This document shows, piece after piece, positions 20,155 through 61,456 of a DNA stretch of 64,000 bases. Every line of letters begins with the position of its first letter. Within the stretch, counting starts at the first letter, position 1. The notes under the pieces were generated by a model that ran no database searches, had not been told where the DNA came from, and worked only from the letters and a program-made list of their open reading frames with translations. The DNA is from Acidobacteriota bacterium (GTDB lineage: Bacteria; Acidobacteriota; Blastocatellia; Pyrinomonadales; Pyrinomonadaceae). The stretch covers positions 62,001 through 126,000 of the forward strand of contig JAOAPY010000032.1 in NCBI GenBank assembly GCA_025463135.1. The letters run 5' to 3'. Both the position numbers and the translations under genes were made by a program.

Positions 20155-20847
20155 TCAGGGTTCTCGCAAAACATGCCATGGATTCCTCGCCGGTGCGAGG
20201 CCTAATCTCACGGCCATTTTCACCAAGTCGGCGAGAGAGTCGGCCTTCATCTTTAGCATCATCTTGCCTCGATGGGCCTTCACCGTGATCTCGCTGATGC
20301 CGAGTTTCAAACCGACCTGTTTATTCAACATGCCGGAGACCACGAACTTCATGACCTCACGTTCGCGAGGCGTCAGTGATGCGTAACAGTCGCGGAGTGC
20401 TTCTACTTCTCTTTCATCACCAAGGGCAGCCGAGCTGCGCTCGATAGCGTGGCGAATGGCGCTCAACAGAACGTCGTCGTCGAATGGCTTCGTCAAAAAC
20501 TCGACAGCTCCCGCTTTCATGGCCTGGACCGTCATAGGAACGTCGCCGTGCCCCGTGATGAAAATGATTGGCATGTCGATGCGATCAGGTGCTATCAGTT
20601 TCTGCAGTTCGAGACCGTCGAGATCCGGAAGAGAAACGTCAAGCACCAGGCAGCTCGGAACCAGCGGCCGTGGGCGAGCGAGAAATTCTTCCGCGGACGC
20701 AAACGTCTCTGGTTGCCAGCCGACAAAGCGAATCAGCAATTCCAGCGACTCCCTGACAGAGATGTCGTCGTCAACAACGAAGACGATTGAGGTGGCCTCC
20801 GACTTGGGTGAACCCGATTCGAGGCTCTCTGCGCTCGCTGACTTCAT
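20155..20847 (-). CDS. FixJ-family response regulator (receiver + LuxR HTH)
   Basis: About 230 residues from ATG 20847, chosen because GGGGAA precedes it; ATG 20859 is the alternative. The receiver has [12 protein letters not shown], phospho-acceptor in [40 protein letters not shown]; the C-terminal LuxR-type helix-turn-helix is [36 protein letters not shown]. It is the DNA-binding member of a two-gene set with the receiver-only protein 40 bp upstream. The soluble PAS kinase at 38423-40483 is the best partner candidate. I propose that it binds the palindromes at 21557, 33801 and 40537 (inference). Confidence 0.92.
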
Positions 20848-20887
20848 ATTGTTCCCCATCGTACAAGAGTGTGTCCGACGCTTCGGC

Positions 20888-21256
20888 TCACGCAAGTGCG
20901 GCGTTTACCGCGTCACGCAAAGCCGTATCGCTGAATGGCTTCAACAATAATTCCGCCGCACCTTGTTCGAGCACCCTGGCACGCACCAGCTCGTCTCTTT
21001 GAGCGGTGATGAAGATGATCGGAATCTCCTTGCCGAGAATTTTCAATTCCTGCTGAAGAGCCGGACCCGTCATGCCCGGCATGGCTATATCGAGAATCAG
21101 GCAGCTGGTCTGATCGATGCAATCGGCCGCGAGGAAATCTTCCGCCGATGAGAATGCCCGGACTGCATAGCCGAACTCCCGTAGCAAGTCCGGGAGCGAC
21201 TCGCGCACGGATTCGTCGTCATCGACTACTGAGACAAGTGAACGTGTTATTGACAT
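20888..21256 (-). CDS. receiver-only response regulator, FixJ-like
   Basis: About 122 residues from ATG 21256; an in-frame GTG six codons upstream is possible and neither has a strong ribosome binding site. A complete receiver ([13 protein letters not shown], phospho-acceptor in [23 protein letters not shown]) ends directly after the last helix with no output domain. It is similar to the receiver of the FixJ-type regulator that follows 40 bp on, so the pair may form a phosphate-sharing or competing set under one kinase. Confidence 0.88.
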
Positions 21257-21440
21257 ATTTTTTACGCGCCGCACTTACTGCGACAGGCCTTGGTTGAGGA
21301 AGCCATTGTTACGTCAGGGCGTGTCGTCCATACCAACCGGGGCAGCGCGCATTGATGATGCGGCCCTGCTCGTTCTTCATCGCGGCTTTCATGGCAGCAC
21401 CCCCTCCGGCAGAAGGATGCTTCAATCCAGTTCAGAGCGT

Positions 21441-21620
21441 CTATAGTACTTTGGTATTGGTGTGGGCACCCAACTCTATTAACAAAAACTCTTGTTCTCT
21501 GTGCCCGGGGGTCAGTTCACGGCACCGGCGCGCTTGGTTCTGGGATCAATACCAATACCAAGGTATCGATCGATACTTTGGTGCAATAGATTCGCCTTTT
21601 CACCTGTGTTGTACTCCGCA
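21441..21620 (+). promoter_or_regulatory. palindromic control element, copy A
   Basis: Lies between the divergent response-regulator genes and the epoxide hydrolase gene. A 26-bp near-perfect palindrome (21557-21582, half-site ACCAARGTATCGA mirrored) is followed by GCAATAGATTCGC. A further inverted half-site TACTTTGGTATTGGT lies about 100 bp upstream at 21447. The 33 bases 21563-21595 are identical to copy B (33807-33839). TAGATT after the palindrome could be a -10 box with no consensus -35, as in activator-dependent promoters. The 557-bp gap 21257-21813 contains no other feature that I see. Confidence 0.6.
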
Positions 21621-21813: not shown

Positions 21814-23193
21814 ATGAGACAACCAGACGACAGATCGCGCCGTCGCTTTCTCAAGGCGAGTTCGATGTTGGGTCTGGCAGTCGCGTTCAGCCCCGGGACG
21901 ATCGCCGAGGCATTTGCAGGTTCGAAATCCAAAATCAGCCAAGAGGAGGACAGCATGACCCAAACCAGTGCTACACAACCGGCCGGCGAGCAGGCAACTG
22001 ACAAGACCGCTATTCGTCCGTTTCATTTCGAGGCGCCGCAATCGGACCTCACCGACTTGCGCAAACGCATCACGGCGACAAAGTGGCCTGACCGCGAACA
22101 GGTCGCCGATGCAACACAAGGCGTGCAGCTCGCGACGATGCAGAAGCTCGCGCAGTATTGGGCGAACTCACACGATTGGCGCAAGTGCGAGGCAAAGATC
22201 AACGCCGTGCCGAACTTCATCACTGAGATCGATGGCCTCGACATTCATTTCATTCACGTGCGCTCCCAGCATGAAAATGCACTGCCGATGATCGTCACAC
22301 ATGGCTGGCCCGGCTCGATCATCGAGCAGATGAAGATTATCGAGCCTTTGACCAATCCGACCGCCCATGGCGGGACCGCGGCGGACGCCTTTCATCTTGT
22401 GATTCCGTCTCTGCCGGGCTACGGGTTCTCAGGCAAGCCGACGAAGCCGGGATGGAATCCCGTTAGCATTGCGAAGGCGTGGGCGACGCTCATGCAACGC
22501 CTCGGCTACACAAAATATGTCGCGCAGGGTGGCGATTGGGGCAATGCAATTTCGGAGGTGATGGCTTTGCAGCAGCCGCCCGGATTGCTCGGCATTCACA
22601 CCAACATGGCGGCGACAGTTCCACCCGATGTTTCGAAGGCGCTTTCCGCGGGTGGCCCGCCGCCCGCCGGCCTTTCGCCGGAGGAAAAGTACGCGTGGGA
22701 TGGGCTCGATGATTTCTATAAGAATGGGCTGGGCTACGCCCTCGAGATGAACAACCGCCCACAGACGCTTTACGGCATCGTCGATTCGCCGGTTGGCCTG
22801 GCGGGCTGGATCCTCGATCACGACATTCGCAGCTACCAGATGATCGCCCGCGTTTTCGACGGCAAGGCTGAAGGGCTGAGCCGCGATGACGTGCTCGACA
22901 ACATCACGCTCTATTGGTTGACGAATACCGCGATTTCTTCGGCGCGTCTCTACTGGGACACGTCGCATAATCTGCCGGCAGGCGGGTTCTTCGACGCGAG
23001 AGGCGTCAAGCTTCCGGTCGCCGTGAGCGCGTTTGCGGAAGAAATTTATCAAGCGCCGAAGAGCTGGGCAGAGAAAGCGTATGTGAAGCTCATCCACTAC
23101 AACCGGCTCCCCAAAGGCACCCACTTCGCGGCCTGGGAACAACCAGAGCTATTCGTCGGTGAAATGCGCACGGGGTTCAAATCGCTAAGATAA
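21814..23193 (+). CDS. Tat-exported epoxide hydrolase
   Basis: Opens epoxides to diols. 459 residues beginning with a twin-arginine signal (SRRRFLKASSMLGLAVAF), so the folded enzyme probably works in the periplasm. The N-terminal epoxide-hydrolase domain (IRPFHFEAPQSDLTDLRKRI...) precedes the alpha/beta-hydrolase core with HGWPGS (oxyanion region), nucleophile Asp241 in QGGDWGN and the C-terminal His in GTHFAAWEQPELF. AAAGGAG just before ATG 21814 supports the start. It opens a plus-strand run of hydrolases and oxidoreductases, downstream of palindromic element A. Confidence 0.92.
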   Translation: MRQPDDRSRRRFLKASSMLGLAVAFSPGTIAEAFAGSKSKISQEEDSMTQTSATQPAGEQATDKTAIRPFHFEAPQSDLTDLRKRITATKWPDREQVADATQGVQLATMQKLAQYWANSHDWRKCEAKINAVPNFITEIDGLDIHFIHVRSQHENALPMIVTHGWPGSIIEQMKIIEPLTNPTAHGGTAADAFHLVIPSLPGYGFSGKPTKPGWNPVSIAKAWATLMQRLGYTKYVAQGGDWGNAISEVMALQQPPGLLGIHTNMAATVPPDVSKALSAGGPPPAGLSPEEKYAWDGLDDFYKNGLGYALEMNNRPQTLYGIVDSPVGLAGWILDHDIRSYQMIARVFDGKAEGLSRDDVLDNITLYWLTNTAISSARLYWDTSHNLPAGGFFDARGVKLPVAVSAFAEEIYQAPKSWAEKAYVKLIHYNRLPKGTHFAAWEQPELFVGEMRTGFKSLR

Positions 23194-33583: not shown

Positions 33584-33761
33584 GTTTCAAGGGTGACGTG
33601 GAAGCGATTCTGGAAGACAAGTCATGACCAGGCGTCGGACGCCATACCACCTTGTACTCCGCAAAGGCATCATCAGGATAACAACATAACCATCGCTCTC
33701 CGGGTTCGGCTGAAGCAATCACCGGCGGTAGTTACCGAGAATGCGCCTGTCAGAGCTGGGT

Positions 33762-33859
33762 GTCTATCGTACTTTGGTATTGGTATCCAACCCGATCAAT
33801 ACCAAAGTATCGATCGATACTTTGGTGCAATAGATTCGCATTTGTACTTGTGATTTACT
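33762..33859 (+). promoter_or_regulatory. palindromic control element, copy B
   Basis: A perfect 26-bp palindrome (33801-33826, half-site ACCAAAGTATCGA mirrored) with an additional half-site ACTTTGGTATTGGT at 33771. GCAATAGATTCGC follows as in copy A, and TGAATCCGAATCGGATGA further on also resembles copy A. The cupin gene starts about 135 bp downstream of the palindrome, followed by the pao operon. The remainder of the 33584-33960 gap has no gene that I can support. Confidence 0.65.
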
Positions 33860-33960
33860 CCCTCCCGCTCAGTGAATCCGAATCGGATGAAGGCGACCGA
33901 AGGCTTCCACAAGAAAAGAACCCTCAATAAAGGAGGACACGTTCCGCAAGAGGTGAAGCC

Positions 33961-34371
33961 TTGAACCAACTGAAAACAATTCTGCCGGAAAACATTGACT
34001 GGAAGCCCTTCGCTGCGTTCCCACCTTTAGTGCGTCTTGCGGTCATTGCAGGTCAGCCGTCGGAACCCGGACCGTACGTGATTCGCGTCAAGGTGCCGGG
34101 CGGCGTGAAGCTGATGCCGCACCGGCACTCCGAGGAACGCATTTACACGGTCATTGCCGGGGTCTTCTACATTGGCGTGGGCGAAGAATTCGACAGCGAC
34201 AAACTCGAGGGCTATCCACCCGGTGCGGTGATTGTATTGCCCGGCAACACGTCTCATTTCCATTGGGCAAAGTCCGGCGAATACATCGCACAGGTCACGG
34301 CGCTTGGGCCGCTGGGTTTTGAATACGTGAACTCGAAAGACGATCCCCGGAACGAGAATTCCCAAAGTTGA
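33961..34371 (+). CDS. small cupin-domain protein
   Basis: 136 residues, start TTG 33961 with GAGGTG upstream. A single cupin barrel: motif 1 VKLMPHRHSEERIYTVIAGVFYIGVG with His-His-Glu metal ligands, and motif 2 PPGAVIVLPGNTSHFHWAKSGE with the third His. No signal peptide. Many such monocupins serve as sensors or minor dioxygenases; substrate unknown. First gene after palindromic element B, 19 bp before paoA-like, so it is likely part of the aldehyde oxidoreductase operon. Confidence 0.87.
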   Translation: MNQLKTILPENIDWKPFAAFPPLVRLAVIAGQPSEPGPYVIRVKVPGGVKLMPHRHSEERIYTVIAGVFYIGVGEEFDSDKLEGYPPGAVIVLPGNTSHFHWAKSGEYIAQVTALGPLGFEYVNSKDDPRNENSQS

Positions 34372-34390
34372 CGATACGAACGGAGGTCTT

Positions 34391-35029
34391 ATGTCAGACG
34401 ACGATCCCAAATCTCTTCCGCCAAGTCCCACCCGACGCAAGTTTCTTTTGACCTCTGGAAGTAGTGTGGCAGCAAGCTTGGTTGCAGCGTACGTACCAGC
34501 CCTCGCAAAAGATGTTGGCGGAGAGAGCGGCCCGGCTCCGACCAATGCCGCGCCAATCATCGAGGGGGCTGTCCCGATTACGCTGCGCATTAATGGTATG
34601 GACCACTCACTTCGGATCGACCCGCGGACGACGCTGCTGGATTGCATCCGGGAGACAGTCGCACTAACTGGAACGAAAAAAGGCTGTGACCATGGTCAAT
34701 GCGGCGCATGCACAGTGCATGTGAACGGCAAGCGTGTGCTTTCCTGCCTCAACCTGGCCCTGATGCACGATGGAGAGGAGGTCACGACTGTCGAAGGCCT
34801 GGGTACGCCTGACGCAATGCATCCGATGCAGGCGTCATTCCTTGCCTGCGACGCTTATCAATGCGGCTATTGCACGTCCGGCCAGATCATGTCGGCCGTC
34901 GCGCTACTGAAGGAACCGTGTGGTTCCGATGACGCGTCGGTGAAGGAACTGATGAGCGGCAACATCTGCCGTTGCGGAGCTTATGGCAATATCGTGGCCG
35001 CGATCCAACAAGTTCGGAAAAACGCCTAA
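34391..35029 (+). CDS. paoA: aldehyde oxidoreductase 2Fe-2S subunit, Tat-exported
   Basis: 212 residues, PaoA/YagT type. A twin-arginine signal (TRRKFLLTSGSSVAASLVAA) exports the assembled complex. The plant-type [2Fe-2S] cluster uses Cys99, 104, 107 and 119 (CDHGQCGAC...LSC). The second cluster uses Cys158, 161, 193 and 195 (CGYC...CRC). Electrons pass from the molybdenum centre through both clusters to FAD. Only this subunit has a signal, as in E. coli PaoABC, so the partners would be carried out with it. 16 bp before paoB. Confidence 0.93.
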   Translation: MSDDDPKSLPPSPTRRKFLLTSGSSVAASLVAAYVPALAKDVGGESGPAPTNAAPIIEGAVPITLRINGMDHSLRIDPRTTLLDCIRETVALTGTKKGCDHGQCGACTVHVNGKRVLSCLNLALMHDGEEVTTVEGLGTPDAMHPMQASFLACDAYQCGYCTSGQIMSAVALLKEPCGSDDASVKELMSGNICRCGAYGNIVAAIQQVRKNA

Positions 35030-35045
35030 CGAGGGAGGGATTTCG

Positions 35046-36047
35046 ATGCACATGTTTGAGTTCATCCGACCGACGGATCCCGCAGCTGCCATTGCGGCTG
35101 CGGCGCAATCGAAAACGGCCCAGCAGGGTGCGGACGTGCGGTTCATGGGCGGGGGCACCACACTGATCGATCTGATGAAGCTAAACGTGGAGACGCCCGA
35201 CCGTGTGCTCGACATCAATCGTCTCCCGCTGGACAAGATCGAGGTCACGCCTGATGGCGGCCTGAAGATCGGTGCGACGGTTCGGAATTCCGATCTCGCA
35301 AATCACCCGAAGGTGCAGAAAGATTATTTGGTCTTGTCGCAGGCGATTCTGAACGGCGCGTCGGCACAGATCCGCAATATGGCGACAGTGGGCGGCAACC
35401 TGCTGCAGCGCACACGTTGTGTCTACTTCCGCGACACGGCTATGTCCTGCAACAAGCGTGAACCCGGCACCGGGTGTCCAGCGATCACCGGTCACAATCG
35501 CACGCTCGCGATCCTGGGTGCAAGCGACCATTGCATCGCGACGAATCCCTCGGACATGTGCGTGGCGATGGCGGCGCTGGAGGCGACGATATACGTGCAA
35601 GGACCCAAAGGATCGCGTGCCATTCCATTCGCCGATTTTCATCTCCTGCCGGGCCGCACGCCACATCAAGAGACCGTATTGGAGCCGGGCGACCTGATCA
35701 CCCACGTAACGCTCCCACCACCTGCCGTCGGAAGCAAGCACCTTTATCTGAAGCTGCGCGATCGAGCGTCGTACGAATTTGCGCTGGCATCGGCAGCGGT
35801 GGTGCTCACGATCGCCGGCGGCAGAATCACGCGTGCACGCGTCGCCCTTGGCGGCGTGGGCACAAGACCGTGGCGCTCGCCGGAGGCTGAGGCGGCGCTT
35901 GCCGGCAAGCCGGCGAACGTTGCGACCTTTCGCCTGGCAGCCGAGGCTGCGCTGCGCAATGCAAGGCCGCAGAGCGAGAACGGTTTCAAGATCGAATTGG
36001 CCAAGCGCTGCCTGATCTATGCATTACGAACGGCTGCAACCAGCTGA
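35046..36047 (+). CDS. paoB: aldehyde oxidoreductase FAD subunit
   Basis: 333 residues from ATG 35046 (AGGGAGGG upstream). FAD-binding domain of the xanthine-dehydrogenase family: GGGTTLIDLMK, ATVGGNLLQRT, GASDHCIATNPSD. Four cysteines at about 125, 135, 144 and 163 (RCVYF, SCNKR, GCPAI, HCIA) correspond to those that hold an extra [4Fe-4S] cluster in PaoB/YagS and its relatives. This, with the gene order, separates the enzyme from ordinary xanthine dehydrogenases. No own signal peptide. Confidence 0.93.
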   Translation: MHMFEFIRPTDPAAAIAAAAQSKTAQQGADVRFMGGGTTLIDLMKLNVETPDRVLDINRLPLDKIEVTPDGGLKIGATVRNSDLANHPKVQKDYLVLSQAILNGASAQIRNMATVGGNLLQRTRCVYFRDTAMSCNKREPGTGCPAITGHNRTLAILGASDHCIATNPSDMCVAMAALEATIYVQGPKGSRAIPFADFHLLPGRTPHQETVLEPGDLITHVTLPPPAVGSKHLYLKLRDRASYEFALASAAVVLTIAGGRITRARVALGGVGTRPWRSPEAEAALAGKPANVATFRLAAEAALRNARPQSENGFKIELAKRCLIYALRTAATS

Positions 36048-36063
36048 TTATTGAGGAGCAATT

Positions 36064-38322
36064 ATGGCGACAACAGACTCATCGCTCTCAACTTCTCCGA
36101 TTGGCCGAGATACGCCTCGTATCGATGGCCCGCGCAAAGTCACGGGTTTGGCGCAGTACACCTCCGATTTTAATTTCCCCGGTATGCTCTACGGCGTTCC
36201 CGTTGAGGCGACGATCGCGAATGGCAAATTACTCGCGCTCGATACTGCTGCCGCGGAAAAAATGTCGGGCGTGCGCGCCGTTTTTCATCGCGGGAACATT
36301 GGAAGGATTTTTCGTTCCACTCCGGCGCCCGGCTTCGATCGCGTCTGTGAAGAGCGGCGGCCACCATTCGAAGATGACGTGATCCGTTACTACGGGCAGT
36401 ACATCGCGCTGGCAGTGGCCGATACCTTCGAAGCCGCCAAGGCCGCAGCGGATGCGGTGCGCGCCACCTACGCCAAAGAAAAATCGAATGTAGAAGCTCG
36501 TCTGAAAGCCGGCGACGATCCGGATGTGGTGCTCACAACCTATGGACCAGCGCCAAGGGAGCAAAGCAAGCGCGGAGACCCTGAAGGCGCGTTTGCGAGT
36601 GCGCCGGTGAAACTTGAGGAAACCTACGTCACGCCTGCGGAGACCCATAATCCGCTTGAACTGCATGCAACCACCGCCATCTGGGATGGAACCATGCTGA
36701 CGCTGTATGACTCGACACAAGGCGTCGTCAATGCGCGCAGCGTACTGGCGCAAATGTTCGGCTTGCCAAAAGAGAGTGTGCGGGTTATTTCGAAGTTCCT
36801 GGGATCGGGGTTCGGCGGCAAGTTATATCCCTGGACGCATGTTCCACTCGCCGTCGCGGCAGCACGGCAATTGGGCAAGCCGCTCAAGTTGGTTGTCAGC
36901 CGCAAAATGATGTTTCAGTCGGTCGGGCATCGCGCGCGTACCCAGCAGCGCCTGCGCCTGGGCGCAAGCCGCGATGGCAAGCTGGTTTCTCTCATGCACG
37001 ACTACGTCTATCACATGTCGATGCTGGACGATTACCACGAAGACTGCGGCGAAGCTACGCCCTTCCATTACAGCGTTCCCAACCTGCGCGTGAGTTTCGG
37101 ACGCGCGCGGCGCAACATCGGCGCGACGGCCGACATGCGCGGCCCGGGCGCCGTGCCCGGTCTTTACGCCACTGAATCGGCGATGAATGAGCTGGCCGAG
37201 AAGCTCAAAATGGATCCCGTCCAGCTCCGCATTCTTAATGAGCCGAAGCTCGACGAATCGAATGGTCTCCCTTTTTCTTCCCGTCATTACGTCGAATGCC
37301 TGAATGTGGGCGCCGAGAAGTTCGGCTGGGCTAAGCGCAACCCGGCGATAGGCTCTATGAAACGCGACGGTCTTACGTTGGGCTGGGGAATGGCGGGTGC
37401 GGCATGGATAGCAGGTCGCTTCGAGGCCGCGGCGAACATGCAATTGCGCGACGACGGCACCGTGCGCGTTTCATGCGCCACGCAAGACATTGGCACCGGC
37501 ATGTACACGATCCTGGCACAACTCGCAGCGGAGAAGACCGGCGTCCCGCTCGACAAGATCGAAGTTGAGCTGGGTGACAGCGCTCTTCCGGACGGCCCGA
37601 TCTCTGGCGGTTCCCTGGCCACGAGCTCGGTGATCCCGGCTGTCTTCAAGGCTGCTGATCAGGCGATCGCATCGATGTTGATCATCGCTGTCACGACTCC
37701 CGGTTCGCCATTCCTCGGGCACAAGCCGGACGATCTAGCGCTGGACAGTGGTCGCATCTTCGTGAAGGCCGAGGGATCCGGGAAAGGCGTTCCTTTCGGC
37801 GACTTGCTGCGTCGCGCGAATGCACGTCTGGTCACGGGCAGCGGCAGTGCTGAAATGACGGCCTTTGCTCCAAACCCAAAGTTCTCCAGGCATTCGTTCG
37901 GCTGTCACTTCGTCGAAGTGACATGGCAGGCCGAGATCGCGCGGTTGCGGGTGAGCCGAGTGGTGACGGTGATGGATGCCGGCCGGATTCTGAATCCGCT
38001 TGCCGGCCGGAATCAGATCCAGGGCGCGGTAGTCATGGGCATCGGCATGGCGCTGTTCGAAGAAACCATTTACGATCCGCAGAACGGCGCGCCTATCAAC
38101 AGCAACCTGGCCGACTACATGGTGACGGTGAATGCCGACGCGCCGCCCATCGACGTCACGTTCCTGGACTATCCCGACAAGGAGATTAATGAACTCGGCG
38201 CACGCGGAATCGGTGAGATTGGATTGGCAGGCATTGCCGCCGCCATCACGGACGCGGTCCATCACGCAACCGGAGTTCGGGTTCGCGAACTGCCGGTGAA
38301 GATTGAGGACTTGTTGGTGTGA
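36064..38322 (+). CDS. paoC: aldehyde oxidoreductase molybdopterin subunit
   Basis: 752 residues, PaoC/YagR type, binding the molybdenum cofactor and oxidising aldehydes to carboxylic acids. The N-terminal a/b hammerhead domain (about 20-130) precedes the Moco domains; conserved stretches are FLGSGFGGKLYPW, DMRGPGAVPGLYATE, CATQDIGTGMYTIL and, near the C-terminus, GARGIGEIGLAG with the catalytic Glu. Length equals the family norm. It follows paoB by 16 bp. The XdhC/PaoD-type Moco-inserting chaperone normally needed is not in the window. Confidence 0.93.
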   Translation: MATTDSSLSTSPIGRDTPRIDGPRKVTGLAQYTSDFNFPGMLYGVPVEATIANGKLLALDTAAAEKMSGVRAVFHRGNIGRIFRSTPAPGFDRVCEERRPPFEDDVIRYYGQYIALAVADTFEAAKAAADAVRATYAKEKSNVEARLKAGDDPDVVLTTYGPAPREQSKRGDPEGAFASAPVKLEETYVTPAETHNPLELHATTAIWDGTMLTLYDSTQGVVNARSVLAQMFGLPKESVRVISKFLGSGFGGKLYPWTHVPLAVAAARQLGKPLKLVVSRKMMFQSVGHRARTQQRLRLGASRDGKLVSLMHDYVYHMSMLDDYHEDCGEATPFHYSVPNLRVSFGRARRNIGATADMRGPGAVPGLYATESAMNELAEKLKMDPVQLRILNEPKLDESNGLPFSSRHYVECLNVGAEKFGWAKRNPAIGSMKRDGLTLGWGMAGAAWIAGRFEAAANMQLRDDGTVRVSCATQDIGTGMYTILAQLAAEKTGVPLDKIEVELGDSALPDGPISGGSLATSSVIPAVFKAADQAIASMLIIAVTTPGSPFLGHKPDDLALDSGRIFVKAEGSGKGVPFGDLLRRANARLVTGSGSAEMTAFAPNPKFSRHSFGCHFVEVTWQAEIARLRVSRVVTVMDAGRILNPLAGRNQIQGAVVMGIGMALFEETIYDPQNGAPINSNLADYMVTVNADAPPIDVTFLDYPDKEINELGARGIGEIGLAGIAAAITDAVHHATGVRVRELPVKIEDLLV

Positions 38323-38422: not shown

Positions 38423-40483
38423 CTAACCTGGCCGGTCGACAAGGCACGGAATCGAAAAGGAAAACGTTACGCCTGGACCATCATTTGGAGTGGCCCACAT
38501 GCGACCGCGGTGACTCTCAATGATCGAGCGGCTTACAGAGAGGCCGATTCCCATACCGACATCCTTGGTTGTATAGAATGACTGAAAGAGCCGGTCCATT
38601 GCGTGTGGTTCGAAACCCGTCCCAGCGTCGTGCACACTCACACGAACATAGTTACCTTCTTCCACTTCAGTCTTGAACAACAGTTCGCGCGGGCGATCAC
38701 CGACAGTGCTCATTGCATCTGAGCCGTTTCGTAGCAGATTGATAATCACCTGCTGTAGCTGCACCCGGTCACCTCTCACCAGCGGTAATTCCTCAGCAAG
38801 TTCGGTCCGCAGAATAACGCGGTTTCGCTCCAGTTCGCTGCGCGACAACGCCATCACTTCGCGAGTCGCTTCATTGAGGTCCACCAACTCGGTGACCGCC
38901 TCCTTCTTACTAAAGAGGGCCCGCAGCCGTGTGATTACGTCAGCCGCTCGGCGGCCGTCGCGAATCGTGCGTTTTGCCGTTTCCCGCGCGCCGTCAACGT
39001 TGGGCGGATCGCCGTCCAACATTCTCACACAGGTACTCGCATTGGTGATGATGCCCGACAAGGGTTGATTGACTTCATGCGCGATCGAAGCCGTCAAAGC
39101 TCCCAGACTCATGACCCTGGCCACGCGCGCGAGTTCGGATCGTGCCTTGCTGAGCGCCTCTTCCGAGAGGTGACGCTGAGTCACGTCCTGCACTGCACCG
39201 ATGTACTCAGGGCCGCCGTGCTCCTCGCGAGTACGATGAGCGATCAAGTGCAGGTACTTAACCGAGCCGTCAGGCATAAGGATACGGTGCTCGTATTCGA
39301 AATCGCTCACGCCCCGCTCGGCTCGCTCGACCATGTCATGAATCATCGGCATGTCGTCGGGATGAACTCGACTGGCAATGAGCTCGAGCGTCATGGTTAT
39401 GCCCGGATCGAATTCGAAGATGCGATACATCGGCTCTGACCAGGTGATCTGGTTGGTAGCAATGACCCACAAAAAGTTGCCCATTCGGCCGAGGTATTGA
39501 CCCTCAGCAAGAAACGCCTCGCTGCGTCGCAGTTCCTCCTCACTTAACGCTCGCTCGATGGCGATGCTGGCAATGTGTGTGACCTGACTGATGAGATCCT
39601 GCTGAAGCTGAGTCGGGCTTGAGGGATGGTTCTGAAAGATGGCGAACGTTCCCAACACCTCGCCGTTGCGCGAAAAGATCGGCGTCGACCAATGAGAGCG
39701 AAGACCGTGCGCCAGCAGGAGGGGTCTTATCGTGGCCGATTGAAACCGCGGATCTGCTTCGATGTCGGTAGCGATTACCTGCGACTTAGTGAGCGCTGCT
39801 GCGCCGCATGGACCCGCGTCGGGGGTCACCGTCAATCCTTCAACCGGATCGTTGAAGCTCGCCGGCAGGCTGGGCGCCGCGCCCAGGCGGAATGTAGTTG
39901 TCCGCCAGTCGATCAAGTAAATGCCGCACGTGCAGTCGGCGGCCGTGTTTTCAACGAACTTGCATAATTCAGTCAGGACCTCAGTCAGATCTGCGCCCGA
40001 CGCCACCATCTCGAGCAGTCGCTTTTCACCTGCAAGTTGGGCCTCCGCTCGCTTACGGTCGTCAATGTCAGTAAGCAGTACGCACCACCGAAGAATGCGG
40101 CCGTCGATATCCTTCAAGGGAAAGCCCCGCGCGTGAAACCAACGATAGACTCCATCATAGCGACGATGCCGCGCCTCTACTTCGTACGTCTGACCGGTCT
40201 TAAGTGCATGCGTCAGCACTTCAATTACGTGCGGCAGGTCTTCGGGATGGACTGGATCTGAAGAGGCCCAACCCTTCAGCTCACCGAGGGTCTTACCAAA
40301 GTATTCCAGGCATGGTTGGTTTAATGTTTCGACCTCGCCGTTGGGAGCTATGACCGCGACTTGCGCGGGTATGCTGTCGACGATTAATTGAAAGTTGAGT
40401 TCGCGAGCCTGGAGGGCTGTCTCAGCTTGCTCTAGTCGCTGGACGAGATCGTCGCCGGCAGTCGTTTTTCGCCCCGGATTCAT
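38423..40483 (-). CDS. soluble PAS-GAF-PAS sensor histidine kinase
   Basis: 686 residues from ATG 40483; an upstream TTG at 40522 is less likely. No transmembrane segment, so a cytoplasmic sensor. A PAS domain with PAC (about 25-145), a GAF domain (about 160-310, with VIATDIEADPRFQ and STPIFSRNGEVLGTFAIF) and a second PAS (about 330-440) are followed by HisKA with the phospho-acceptor in SIAHEVNQPLSGI and a HATPase domain (NLLRNGSDAM, VHDAGTGFEPH, GMGIGLSVSRSI). This kinase type works with FixJ/TodT-like regulators, and no regulator adjoins it. The FixJ pair at 20.1-21.3 kb is the natural candidate. Element C lies just upstream of its start. Confidence 0.9.
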   Translation of the reverse strand: MNPGRKTTAGDDLVQRLEQAETALQARELNFQLIVDSIPAQVAVIAPNGEVETLNQPCLEYFGKTLGELKGWASSDPVHPEDLPHVIEVLTHALKTGQTYEVEARHRRYDGVYRWFHARGFPLKDIDGRILRWCVLLTDIDDRKRAEAQLAGEKRLLEMVASGADLTEVLTELCKFVENTAADCTCGIYLIDWRTTTFRLGAAPSLPASFNDPVEGLTVTPDAGPCGAAALTKSQVIATDIEADPRFQSATIRPLLLAHGLRSHWSTPIFSRNGEVLGTFAIFQNHPSSPTQLQQDLISQVTHIASIAIERALSEEELRRSEAFLAEGQYLGRMGNFLWVIATNQITWSEPMYRIFEFDPGITMTLELIASRVHPDDMPMIHDMVERAERGVSDFEYEHRILMPDGSVKYLHLIAHRTREEHGGPEYIGAVQDVTQRHLSEEALSKARSELARVARVMSLGALTASIAHEVNQPLSGIITNASTCVRMLDGDPPNVDGARETAKRTIRDGRRAADVITRLRALFSKKEAVTELVDLNEATREVMALSRSELERNRVILRTELAEELPLVRGDRVQLQQVIINLLRNGSDAMSTVGDRPRELLFKTEVEEGNYVRVSVHDAGTGFEPHAMDRLFQSFYTTKDVGMGIGLSVSRSIIESHRGRMWATPNDGPGVTFSFSIPCLVDRPG

Positions 40484-40529
40484 GGCAAGAAGATGCACCT
40501 GGGCCGCCCAAAAGCCAAGCAAATTTGGG

Positions 40530-40597
40530 TACCACTAAGGTGTCGATCAATACCTTCGTCTAATAGATTAATTGCTTCGCCTGTAGTGTACTCCATC
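40530..40597 (+). promoter_or_regulatory. palindromic control element, copy C (divergent)
   Basis: AAGGTGTCGATCAATACCTT (40537-40556) is an 8-of-10-pair palindrome matching the core of copies A and B. It is followed by TAATAGATT and CGCCTGTAGTGTACTCC, which align with the downstream part of copy A (ATAGATT; CACCTGTGTTGTACTCC). It sits about 55 bp upstream of the kinase ATG on the minus strand and abuts a truncated amidohydrolase on the plus strand. Confidence 0.5.
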
Positions 40598-40602
40598 GCA
40601 TT

Positions 40603-41382
40603 GCTTTCGAAAATCTCACTGGCCACCTCTGTTCAATCGGTTATCGTGAAGCCGCGGAGATCGGCATAGATAATCTCGAACATGGCCTGCTGGCAGATTC
40701 TGAATTTGTCTCTGTCAAACAGCCGGACCAATGCCCCGGTCCCATAGTCGACGCGAGCCTGCGCCGGTTGGATATCAACAGCGACGCTGCCAAAGAGACC
40801 ATTCGTACACTGGTTTCGAAGAACGTTGCCTTGACGTCAACGTTGCCGGTTTTTGAAGCTGGTGCTCCGCTGGCCCAAACCGGGATAGGATCAGAGAGCG
40901 CGGTGATGAATCCACGTGTCCTGAACGTGATGAATGCCGATGCGCGCCTGCGTTACCTCACGGAGCGTTCCTTCATCGCGCCGAATTCACCGGCGGCATT
41001 GCTCGTTCGAAAATCGATGGACTTCGAGCGCGCCTTTGTAGCCGCAGGTGGTTTACTGATTGCGGGCTCGGACCCGACGGGCAATGGCGGCATCGTCGCC
41101 GGCTTTGGTGACTTGCGGGAAGTGGAGTTGCTCGTGGAGGCAGGCTTCACTCCGCTCGAAGCGATTAAGATTGCGAGTCTTAATGGGGCAAAGTTTCTGG
41201 GAGAAAACTCGCGAATTGGTTCGATTGCGATTGCCAAACAAGCTGACTTGATGGTGGTGAAAGGAAATCCGGCTGCGAATATTAACGACCTCGAAAAAGT
41301 TGAGATCGTCTTCAAAGATGGCGTCGGCTACGACACGGAGAAGTTGATTCAATCGGTACAGGGCCTGGTGGGAATTCGGTGA
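40603..41382 (+). pseudogene. 5'-truncated imidazolonepropionase-like amidohydrolase
   Basis: The open frame reads from about 40603 with TGHLCSIGYREAAEIGIDNLEHGLL and continues to FVAAGGLLIAGSDPTGNGG, REVELLVEAGFTPLEAIKIASLNGAKFLG and a typical C-terminus (GSIAIAKQADLMVVKGNPA). This is the C-terminal part of an amidohydrolase with metal-site residues GHLC (His), NLEHG (His) and AGSD (Asp). The N-terminal part with the HxH motif and any start codon is missing; an in-frame stop lies at 40564. The break coincides with the end of palindromic element C. Possibly an internal TTG makes a 204-residue product, but it would lack the active site. Confidence 0.75.
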
Positions 41383-41840: not shown

Positions 41841-41898
41841 TGGTGCCGAGGGCGGGAGTCGAACCCGCACGCCCGTTAAGGACAACGGATTTTAAGTC
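41841..41898 (-). repeat. displaced 3' fragment of tRNA-Leu (att site)
   Basis: These 58 bases are identical to 44558-44615, running from the encoded CCA through the T-arm and variable loop to the anticodon loop. Identity ends exactly at the CCA on one side and just past the anticodon on the other. This extent is normal for attachment sites of tyrosine integrases that target the 3' half of tRNA genes. The fragment lacks the 5' half and cannot be a functional tRNA. Confidence 0.9.
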
Positions 41899-43047: not shown

Positions 43048-43126
43048 ACCAAGGGTGCAGATGACAGTATTCGCAAGCGTTCTGAGCGCGCTCGCGAATC
43101 TGAGCGCTGATCCGTGAGTTGATTAT

Positions 43127-43342
43127 CTATGACTGAGAGTTCGCGATCTGCTGCGCTTGTCGTTTGAGAATGGCGGCGAACTTGTTCGCCCGCACATAAT
43201 CCGCGTATTCAGCCCGCTCGTCTTCCGCCAGTTCGCTTTCCGTTGATTTTCGGGCGAGTTCTTCTATCCGAGCTTGTAGTTCAGGATCAGCGCGAAAGCC
43301 GATCACTGCGTCAGCTTTTTCCGGTAAGACAATCTCCAGCAT
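43127..43342 (-). CDS. small antitoxin-like protein, orphan
   Basis: About 71 residues from ATG 43342 (a GTG at 43351 is possible), no clear ribosome binding site. Helical and charged: LPEKADAVIGFRADPELQARIEELARKSTESELAEDERAEYADYVRANKFAAILKRQAQQIA. Proteins of this shape commonly precede an HNH endonuclease or toxin gene. Here the downstream side on this strand runs straight into the 3' end of the PIN gene, so a partner is missing. No name assigned. Confidence 0.55.
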   Translation of the reverse strand: MLEIVLPEKADAVIGFRADPELQARIEELARKSTESELAEDERAEYADYVRANKFAAILKRQAQQIANSQS

Positions 43343-44068
43343 CGATCGCACGCCGCGATCAAATGCCAGACTCTCTGATTTCGTTGCCGTGCGCCGAACT
43401 TACCACACCGATCCGACGCTTGGCAGTGCTGCGCGATCGGCCCGTATGGAAGCGCGCATCGCAGAGCCATCTGGGGCGGCTCACTGCTCGCCGGTCACTA
43501 CTCACTGTTGTGTAGACGAACGGCGGCGAAACGAGCTTCGAAGAGGATTCTGAGAGTGCTCATTTACTTTGCGTCGTCATGAGCAGAGCCGGCTGAGAGT
43601 CCAGCAATAACAGTACCGCCAGCGGTCGACCGTTTCGCGCCAACGGCACTCTGCCATGTGCGCATCACGAACTACCGCACAACTTTACGCTGCGCTCCAA
43701 GTCCTCCATTTCGTTACGGCACTTCGTGTGTGCGGTCGAGCGCCCAGTCGCGGGGAACGTCACTTAGCGGGGAAACATTCTTTTTCTAAGCGCACGAACA
43801 AAATACGAGGCACTTCATCTCTTCAGGCTCGCAATCCAATGGATTCTCTAGCGCCGCACTCATCCGTTACTCAAACTTGAATCAAGCCAAAGTAGGTGCT
43901 GCGCATCTGAGATGTTTTTGACACGTCACCCCCTGAATTTGGGGCTGTGGCGTTTACGTTCGTAAACGTGGCACGCGTTTTGTTAACGCATGCCGTCAGA
44001 GGGACTTAGCGTGGTCGCGTTAACTTTGTTAACAAGCCCGTTAACTCTGTAGACGCGCCGTTAACATT
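43343..44068. other. island region without genes; GTTAAC palindrome cluster
   Basis: No credible gene. From 43946 to 44066 short palindromes follow closely: TTTACGTTCGTAAA, several GTTAAC hexamers and GTTAACTTTGTTAAC. These could be regulator-binding sites, pieces of a lost origin or transfer region, or repeats. The left part is a mixture of short frames in all phases, as in decayed sequence. Confidence 0.45.
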
Positions 44069-44557: not shown

Positions 44558-44644
44558 TGGTGCCGAGGGCGGGAGTCGAACCCGCACGCCCGTTAAGGAC
44601 AACGGATTTTAAGTCCGTAGCGTCTGCCATTCCGCCACCCCGGC
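44558..44644 (-). tRNA. tRNA-Leu (anticodon UAA)
   Basis: 87 nt including encoded CCA. The acceptor strands GCCGGGG and CCTCGGC pair (one G-U), discriminator A. The anticodon stem-loop reads GGACTTAAAATCC with anticodon TAA. The long variable arm TGTCCTTAACGGGC and the T-arm GCGGGTTCGACTCCCGC are class II features typical of leucine. It is the insertion target of the adjoining island. Confidence 0.95.
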
Positions 44645-44669: not shown

Positions 44670-44790
44670 CGGCAGGCGGAAGGCAGTAGGCGGAAGTCAG
44701 GCGGAAGGCAGGCGGAAGGTAGGCGGAAGGTAGGCGGAAGGCAGGCGGAAGGCAGGCGGAAGGTAGGCGGAAGGCAGGCGAAGGCAGAAG
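44670..44790. repeat. 11-bp tandem repeat (minisatellite)
   Basis: About ten copies of AGGCGGAAGGC or AGGCGGAAGGT in tandem, with small changes at the edges. It begins 26 bp upstream of the tRNA-Leu 5' end, so the tRNA's -35 region lies inside or against it. Not a CRISPR: units are too short and have no spacers. Confidence 0.85.
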
Positions 44791-44940
44791 GAAGGGAGAA
44801 GGGAGTAAGCGGATTAAGAGCCGGTAGTTTGAATAAACGCGCGAATCTGCCGCGATATGATTCGGCCAACCTTCTAGCGGTCACTTCCAGATGATAGAAT
44901 ACCCACGTCTTCTCAGTCGTCCGTTTTGCATCAGACCGCT

Positions 44941-61252: not shown

Positions 61253-61456
61253 GGTCCGACAAACTTCAGTTTGTCGCTGCTTTGATGAGATTCAAGTTCG
61301 AAGTAATGGAACTATCGACAAACTGAATTTGGTCGTTGCTTTGATGAGATTCAAGTTCGAAGTAATAAAACTATCGACAAACCTTCAGTTTGTCGTTGCT
61401 TTGATGAGATTCAAGTTCGAAGTAATGGAACTATCGACAAACTGAAGTTGGTCGGA
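61253..61456. repeat. three 59-60 bp tandem repeats bounded by an inverted repeat
   Basis: Units share GCTTTGATGAGATTCAAGTT and CGAAGTAATGGAACTATCGA, repeating at 59 and 60 bp (anchor bases at 61281, 61340 and 61400). Junctions carry GACAAAC/GTTTGTC hairpins. The array begins with GTCCGACAAACTTCAG and ends with CTGAAGTTGGTCGGAC, inverted copies of each other. There are no variable spacers, so it is not a CRISPR. It fills the gap between convergent-side genes on the minus strand. Confidence 0.85.

Follow-up and report, generated by a model that had tools for sequence, protein, structure and literature searches.

TodS and StyS are hybrid kinases with two kinase modules. Phosphorylated StyR (StyR-P) is reported to activate from a high-affinity site at about -40, plus a further upstream site (PMC2442086). 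In the window, by which we mean the whole 64,000-nucleotide stretch of DNA analysed, we found a PAS kinase and a receiver-GerE regulator that resemble FixL and FixJ, their best NCBIfam matches. However, the kinase scores 231.4 bits against the NCBIfam FixL equivalog cut-off of 850 and the regulator 208.4 bits against the FixJ equivalog cut-off of 255, so both fall short; in addition, the window system has GAF and PAS domains beyond those of FixL, together with a separate receiver, and its sites lead hydrolase and oxidoreductase genes. Unlike StyS/StyR and TodS/TodT, the system has a kinase with one HisKA and one HATPase match rather than two modules, and none of the window genes scanned was recognisable as part of a styrene or toluene pathway. 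On the other hand, the two putative boxes of the element described below would lie near -44 and -62, close to the StyR site at about -40 (PMC2442086). The features that make up the window system are the following.

40530..40594, plus strand: copy C of the element, promoter-like, recognised by repeat comparison, copy model and the match to relative G116, with a putative promoter role; sub-parts are box I at 40532-40543 (degraded), box II at 40550-40564 and the -10-like TGTACT at 40587-40592
38423..40522, minus strand: PAS-GAF-PAS-HisKA-HATPase sensor kinase, given here as its longest frame, with the first ATG at 40483, and oriented away from copy C
20155..20895, minus strand: FixJ-like response regulator (receiver plus GerE/LuxR HTH), the presumed binder of the element
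20888..21274, minus strand: single-domain receiver
21553..21617, plus strand: copy A, which precedes the gene for the epoxide hydrolase
21814..23193, plus strand: epoxide hydrolase (EHN domain), the first gene after copy A
33797..33861, plus strand: copy B, which stands ahead of a cupin gene and molybdenum oxidoreductase genes
33961..38322, plus strand: genes behind copy B, for cupin-like, 2Fe-2S, FAD and molybdenum-binding subunits

Copies A, B and C align without gaps over 65-71 bp, and the pairwise likeness among element copies is 71-89%. Each presents, in order, two boxes (core ACC-NN-GGT or variants), AAT, AGATT and a tail ending in TACTCC. The preliminary description of this DNA had proposed copy C, and its existence is borne out, with core and tail as described there: over 65 bp it shares 71% identity with copy A, and a three-copy model that contains copy C by construction gives it 66.8 bits (E 7.4e-18 against the 6.48 Mb genome), while the kinase-side element of G116, which provides independent support, aligns with 40534-40594 at 84% identity, an alignment that ends at 40594. 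Across the whole 6.48 Mb genome, the only full-length matches at E 1 are A, B and C, all in the window; the model gives six matches, three of which are the same sites on the other strand. The kinase adjoins copy C as had been claimed; the distance, given there as about 55 bp, measures 8 bp if taken from the low end of the element at 40530 to where the longest kinase frame starts (TTG, 40522), or 47 bp to the first kinase ATG (40483). Box II of copy C fits the consensus; since its box I is unlike that of G116 at 5 of 12 bases, copy C may be decaying. A 34-bp repeat with a TACTTTGGTATTGGT box occurs upstream of copies A and B (21428-21461 and 33751-33784), and is possibly the site of another regulator.

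The distance from AAT to TACT is 24 bp in 24 of 26 copies, including the three in the window, and 25 bp in the other two, the 26 copies having been picked by the model, so that the fixed spacing is partly by construction. If TNTACT serves as the -10 sequence, arithmetic on this spacing centres the boxes near -44 and -62. The element thus has the set distance from a predicted -10 sequence that belongs to FixJ/NarL-type regulated promoters. The reading that suits it best is a promoter dependent on an activator and belonging to a FixLJ-like two-component system, not the edge of a cassette; the regulator would bind DNA and activate transcription at the element. A search of Rfam at gathering thresholds returned tRNA only. 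We found no description of the element or the regulon, and the motif strings of the element led to no related paper, in open-access papers, a scope outside which most subscription journals lie.

The element accompanies the kinase throughout the family. Of 119 genomes in the family, seven have the kinase at an E-value cutoff of 1e-100 and 12 have the element at E 0.01; the element is present in all seven kinase genomes as opposed to 5 of the 112 without a kinase match (Fisher p 1.4e-8), and in these five it is weaker. Similarly, the regulator was found at E 1e-75 in eight of 119 genomes, with the element in 8/8 of these against 4/111 of the others. Absences hold at these settings, with the best 9 kinase and the best 25 regulator candidates scored per genome and, for the element, with the stricter filters of Infernal. 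No relative has more than 8 element matches. The regulator and the PAS kinase hence occur together with the site in the family, an association that becomes weaker at distant kinase loci. In G116, G095, G099 and G106 the element stands in the place of copy C, divergent from the kinase, and is followed by other genes. One kinase relative, at L075 13787-16842 (G107), extends over two overlapping open frames, and may be frameshifted or misassembled.

To look beyond the family, we scanned named genomes with the kinase alignment and took the best 80 loci. The window-built model matches 26 of these at E 0.1, with 49 matches, some of them both-strand duplicates; the matched loci belong to Acidobacteriota, Pseudomonadota, the verrucomicrobial L161, Kribbella L189 (Actinomycetota) and, weakly, the gemmatimonadal L155, and two of the 26, L137 and L158, are family genomes again (G116 and G107). 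The element thus lies within 10 kb of kinase homologues in Pseudomonadota, Verrucomicrobiota and Actinomycetota, and on rhizobial plasmids. When the 80 loci are scored with a matrix of copies A, B and C, the best control from reversed sequences is surpassed by 11 of the 17 loci with a kinase identity of at least 60%, by 8 of 25 at 50-60%, by none of 13 at 45-50% and by one of 25 below that. Because these pass counts fall with kinase identity, the element signal is limited to the closer kinase relatives, and 6 of the 17 closest named loci fail the control. An element divergent from the kinase occurs in named loci as well, such as L140, L154, L159 and L162. On plasmids, the kinase is present in 40 records at E 1e-80. 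In all three of the 40 that were examined (Sinorhizobium fredii, S. meliloti and Mesorhizobium ciceri), the element is found immediately upstream of the kinase, on the strand opposite to it, with one or two receivers behind the kinase; epoxide hydrolases are annotated on two of the three, and an alpha/beta fold hydrolase on the S. meliloti plasmid.

We considered as first gene behind a copy the longest open frame of at least 80 residues starting no more than 450 bp away, which is not an annotated gene. The analysis covered 56 copies, namely 26 of the 37 family rows, the same 26 that were used for the spacing count, and 30 of the 49 named-locus matches. Left out were 7 opposite-strand duplicates and G034, G055, G096 and G097 among the family rows, and, among the named-locus matches, 4 in L137/L158 (G116 and G107 again), 7 opposite-strand duplicates and 8 weak matches in L145, L149, L155, L156, L159 and L166. 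A homologue of the copy-A epoxide hydrolase is the first frame behind 18 of the 56 copies in two phyla (Acidobacteriota and Pseudomonadota), a 198-residue protein behind five and a 160-residue protein behind three; one copy (L213) has no 80-residue frame starting within 450 bp. On the kinase side, G116 carries genes for a 160-residue protein, MsrA, a glyoxalase, a disulfide reductase, a NIPSNAP protein, an F420-type oxidoreductase and a redoxin; G095 a catalase-like protein, whose 23.2 bits fall short of the Pfam cut-off of 25, as well as a lipoxygenase; G099 an epoxide hydrolase that runs off the end of its contig; and G106 a 188-residue frame. In the pseudomonadotal L154, L159 and L162 the kinase-side gene is an epoxide hydrolase. 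These genes suggest that the regulon would serve the detoxification of epoxides, peroxides or aldehydes. An insertion sequence, a MITE or an attachment site, for which many copies without a fixed relation to genes are expected, is an unlikely identity for the element, given three full copies in 6.48 Mb, at most 8 matches in a relative and an epoxide hydrolase homologue behind 18 of 56 copies.

This variety behind kinase-side copies bears on whether recombination between promoter copies swaps the genes behind them, copy C being a docking site left after an imperfect exchange. The kinase-side copies of our genome, G116, G095, G099 and G106 do lead five different first frames, and a G116 copy resembling A and B leads the gene of the 198-residue protein, unlike A and B themselves. 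However, since epoxide hydrolase recurs behind the kinase-side copies of L154, L159 and L162, as in G099, the kinase-side gene is not freely exchanged. Moreover, independent acquisition or loss explains these cases too, and the junction at copy C falls past the shared sequence and within a gene, an outcome that recombination inside the element does not produce. We therefore regard such shuffling as distinctly unlikely. A combined reading, in which a regulon with a strict promoter layout crosses phyla and plasmids, its promoter copies serve as docking points for gene exchange, and copy C was caught after an exchange that left a fragment, seems to us rather doubtful.

What lies behind copy C is a broken gene.

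40595..40615, no strand: junction interval, lying between 40594, where the match to the G116 kinase-side promoter ends, and 40616-40618, where the DNA begins to match intact amidohydrolases
40616..41382, plus strand: 3' portion of a gene for an amidohydrolase, amounting to 255 codons out of about 480; the first in-frame ATG, GTG or TTG is the TTG at 40768

The frame has no internal stop from 40594 to its stop at 41382, and an in-frame ATG, GTG or TTG was sought before the TTG at 40768 and not found. Homology at the protein level starts at query residue 7-8, corresponding to 40612-40615, and, judged from translated relatives, about 220 of about 480 residues are missing at the N-terminus. Amidohydrolase homologues of at least 74% identity occur in 19 family genomes besides our own. 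In 18 of these they match from query residue 7 or 8, with frames of 478 to 555 residues, one of them (G099) having one internal stop and lying at a contig end; in the nineteenth, G098, the match runs from residue 76 in a 189-residue frame. Among DNA matches beginning at 40600-40640, those starting at 40616 or 40618 come from 25 loci in 17 genomes. That the coding sequence begins in mid-protein, as first reported, is thus confirmed. A search of the genome for the lost 5' half, in which the first 225 residues of the G112 protein served as the query, did not recover it: the six matches, the best at 32% identity, are all distant paralogues. The break, which had been placed within about 15 bases of the element's end, falls within about 21 bp after copy C; the junction lies outside the conserved element. 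The fragment differs from its nearest homologue at 39, 14 and 142 first, second and third codon positions (G000-G112; dN 0.096), with corresponding counts of 37, 16 and 143 for G000-G113 and 48, 20 and 132 for G000-G118. Because the differences from the nearest homologue are mainly at third positions, the gene was probably under selection until recently. Behind the kinase-side elements of G116 and G095 the sequences are alike for some 20 bp, which are not seen behind copy C. Since the G116 match ends at 40594 and these 20 bp are absent, the promoter stayed with the kinase and the sequence behind it differs. Among the relatives compared, none showed the same truncation without the element, and none had an intact amidohydrolase behind the element; the element was, however, found in front of other intact genes.

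The junction could have been made by the assembly, as a chimera at 40595-40615 that joins two unrelated stretches. This is a single assembly in 56 contigs, and the surroundings of the amidohydrolase genes in relatives showed no synteny with our contig near the gene. The contig is nevertheless 233 kb long, no repeat of at least 24 bp apart from the element occurs at the junction, and one element copy resembles another at only 71-89%, so we give an artefact very little credence.

The preliminary description had further taken the element as the mark of a recombination or insertion boundary, which would fit a transferable cassette bounded by copy C. Such a recombination or insertion site, be it a mobile-element end, an attachment site or a MITE-like repeat, could account for the truncated gene adjoining copy C, for the three copies in the window and for the movement of the neighbouring gene set between lineages. 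Indeed, the molybdenum-subunit gene is 92% identical to that of G116 at the DNA level, compared with 81% for rpoB and 74% for the kinase, indicating that part of the set, but not all of it, moved recently; in protein identity, the molybdenum subunit stands at 95% and rpoB at 88%. Hence the transfer of some nearby genes stands. However, copy C is not supported as a cassette edge, since other genes lie behind the kinase-side copies in four relatives. Furthermore, the near-fixed spacing to the -10-like sequence is promoter-like, the element precedes various genes in many genomes, with epoxide hydrolase behind copies in both Acidobacteriota and Pseudomonadota, and the break falls outside the conserved element. 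That the element makes or marks a recombination edge is accordingly highly improbable.

Farther to the right lies a tRNA-Leu gene. A tRNA-Leu(TAA) gene is present in 9 of the 15 relatives' stretches fetched around the M28 peptidase gene, next to Fur or M28 genes in seven of the nine and some kilobases off in two; beyond it, the relatives' genes mostly have no match on our contig, except for G116 and part of G100. In G116, genes matching our contig to the left of the window (about -6134) adjoin tRNA-Leu. The stretch from about -6134 to 44558, about 50 kb, thus seems to be extra here or lost in G116. An exact 58-bp copy of the 3' end of tRNA-Leu(TAA) is also present (sites 41841-41898 and 44558-44644, 2.7 kb apart), and the gene and its partial copy enclose a PIN-domain protein gene, which looks like a small integrated element at the tRNA. 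To the left of the far tRNA copy, the sequence from 41665 on matches the G116 tRNA flank at 73%, and the 289 bp at 43125-43413 are 79% identical to a G116 inter-frame stretch about 6 kb from its intact amidohydrolase. A tandem 11-bp repeat lies to the right of the tRNA gene (44675-44795), and a 75-bp direct repeat in three copies with partly inverted ends at 61261-61454.

Our main reading, to which we assign a probability of roughly 85%, is that copy C is a divergent activator-dependent promoter next to the kinase in a portable FixLJ-like regulon and was brought up against the remnant of a gene by chance. The phosphorylated FixJ-like regulator (20155-20895) would bind the two boxes, near -62 and -44, and bring RNA polymerase to the -10-like TNTACT. 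Intact stress or detoxification genes follow the kinase-side promoter in relatives, whereas in this lineage the genes once behind it were presumably lost. An unrelated 3' piece of an amidohydrolase gene would have been joined 1-21 bp past the promoter, most likely via a chance (illegitimate) deletion or rearrangement, and the outcome would be a promoter facing a remnant that lacks a start.

There is nothing out of the ordinary in the pseudogene junction itself. The association of the element with a regulon is well supported, and the element is the signature of a wide one, comprising the PAS kinase, the FixJ-like regulator, epoxide hydrolases and oxidative-damage enzymes, and seen in Acidobacteriota, Pseudomonadota, a verrucomicrobial locus, Kribbella and rhizobial plasmids. 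The motif allows this regulon to be found by sequence and its signal to be sought.
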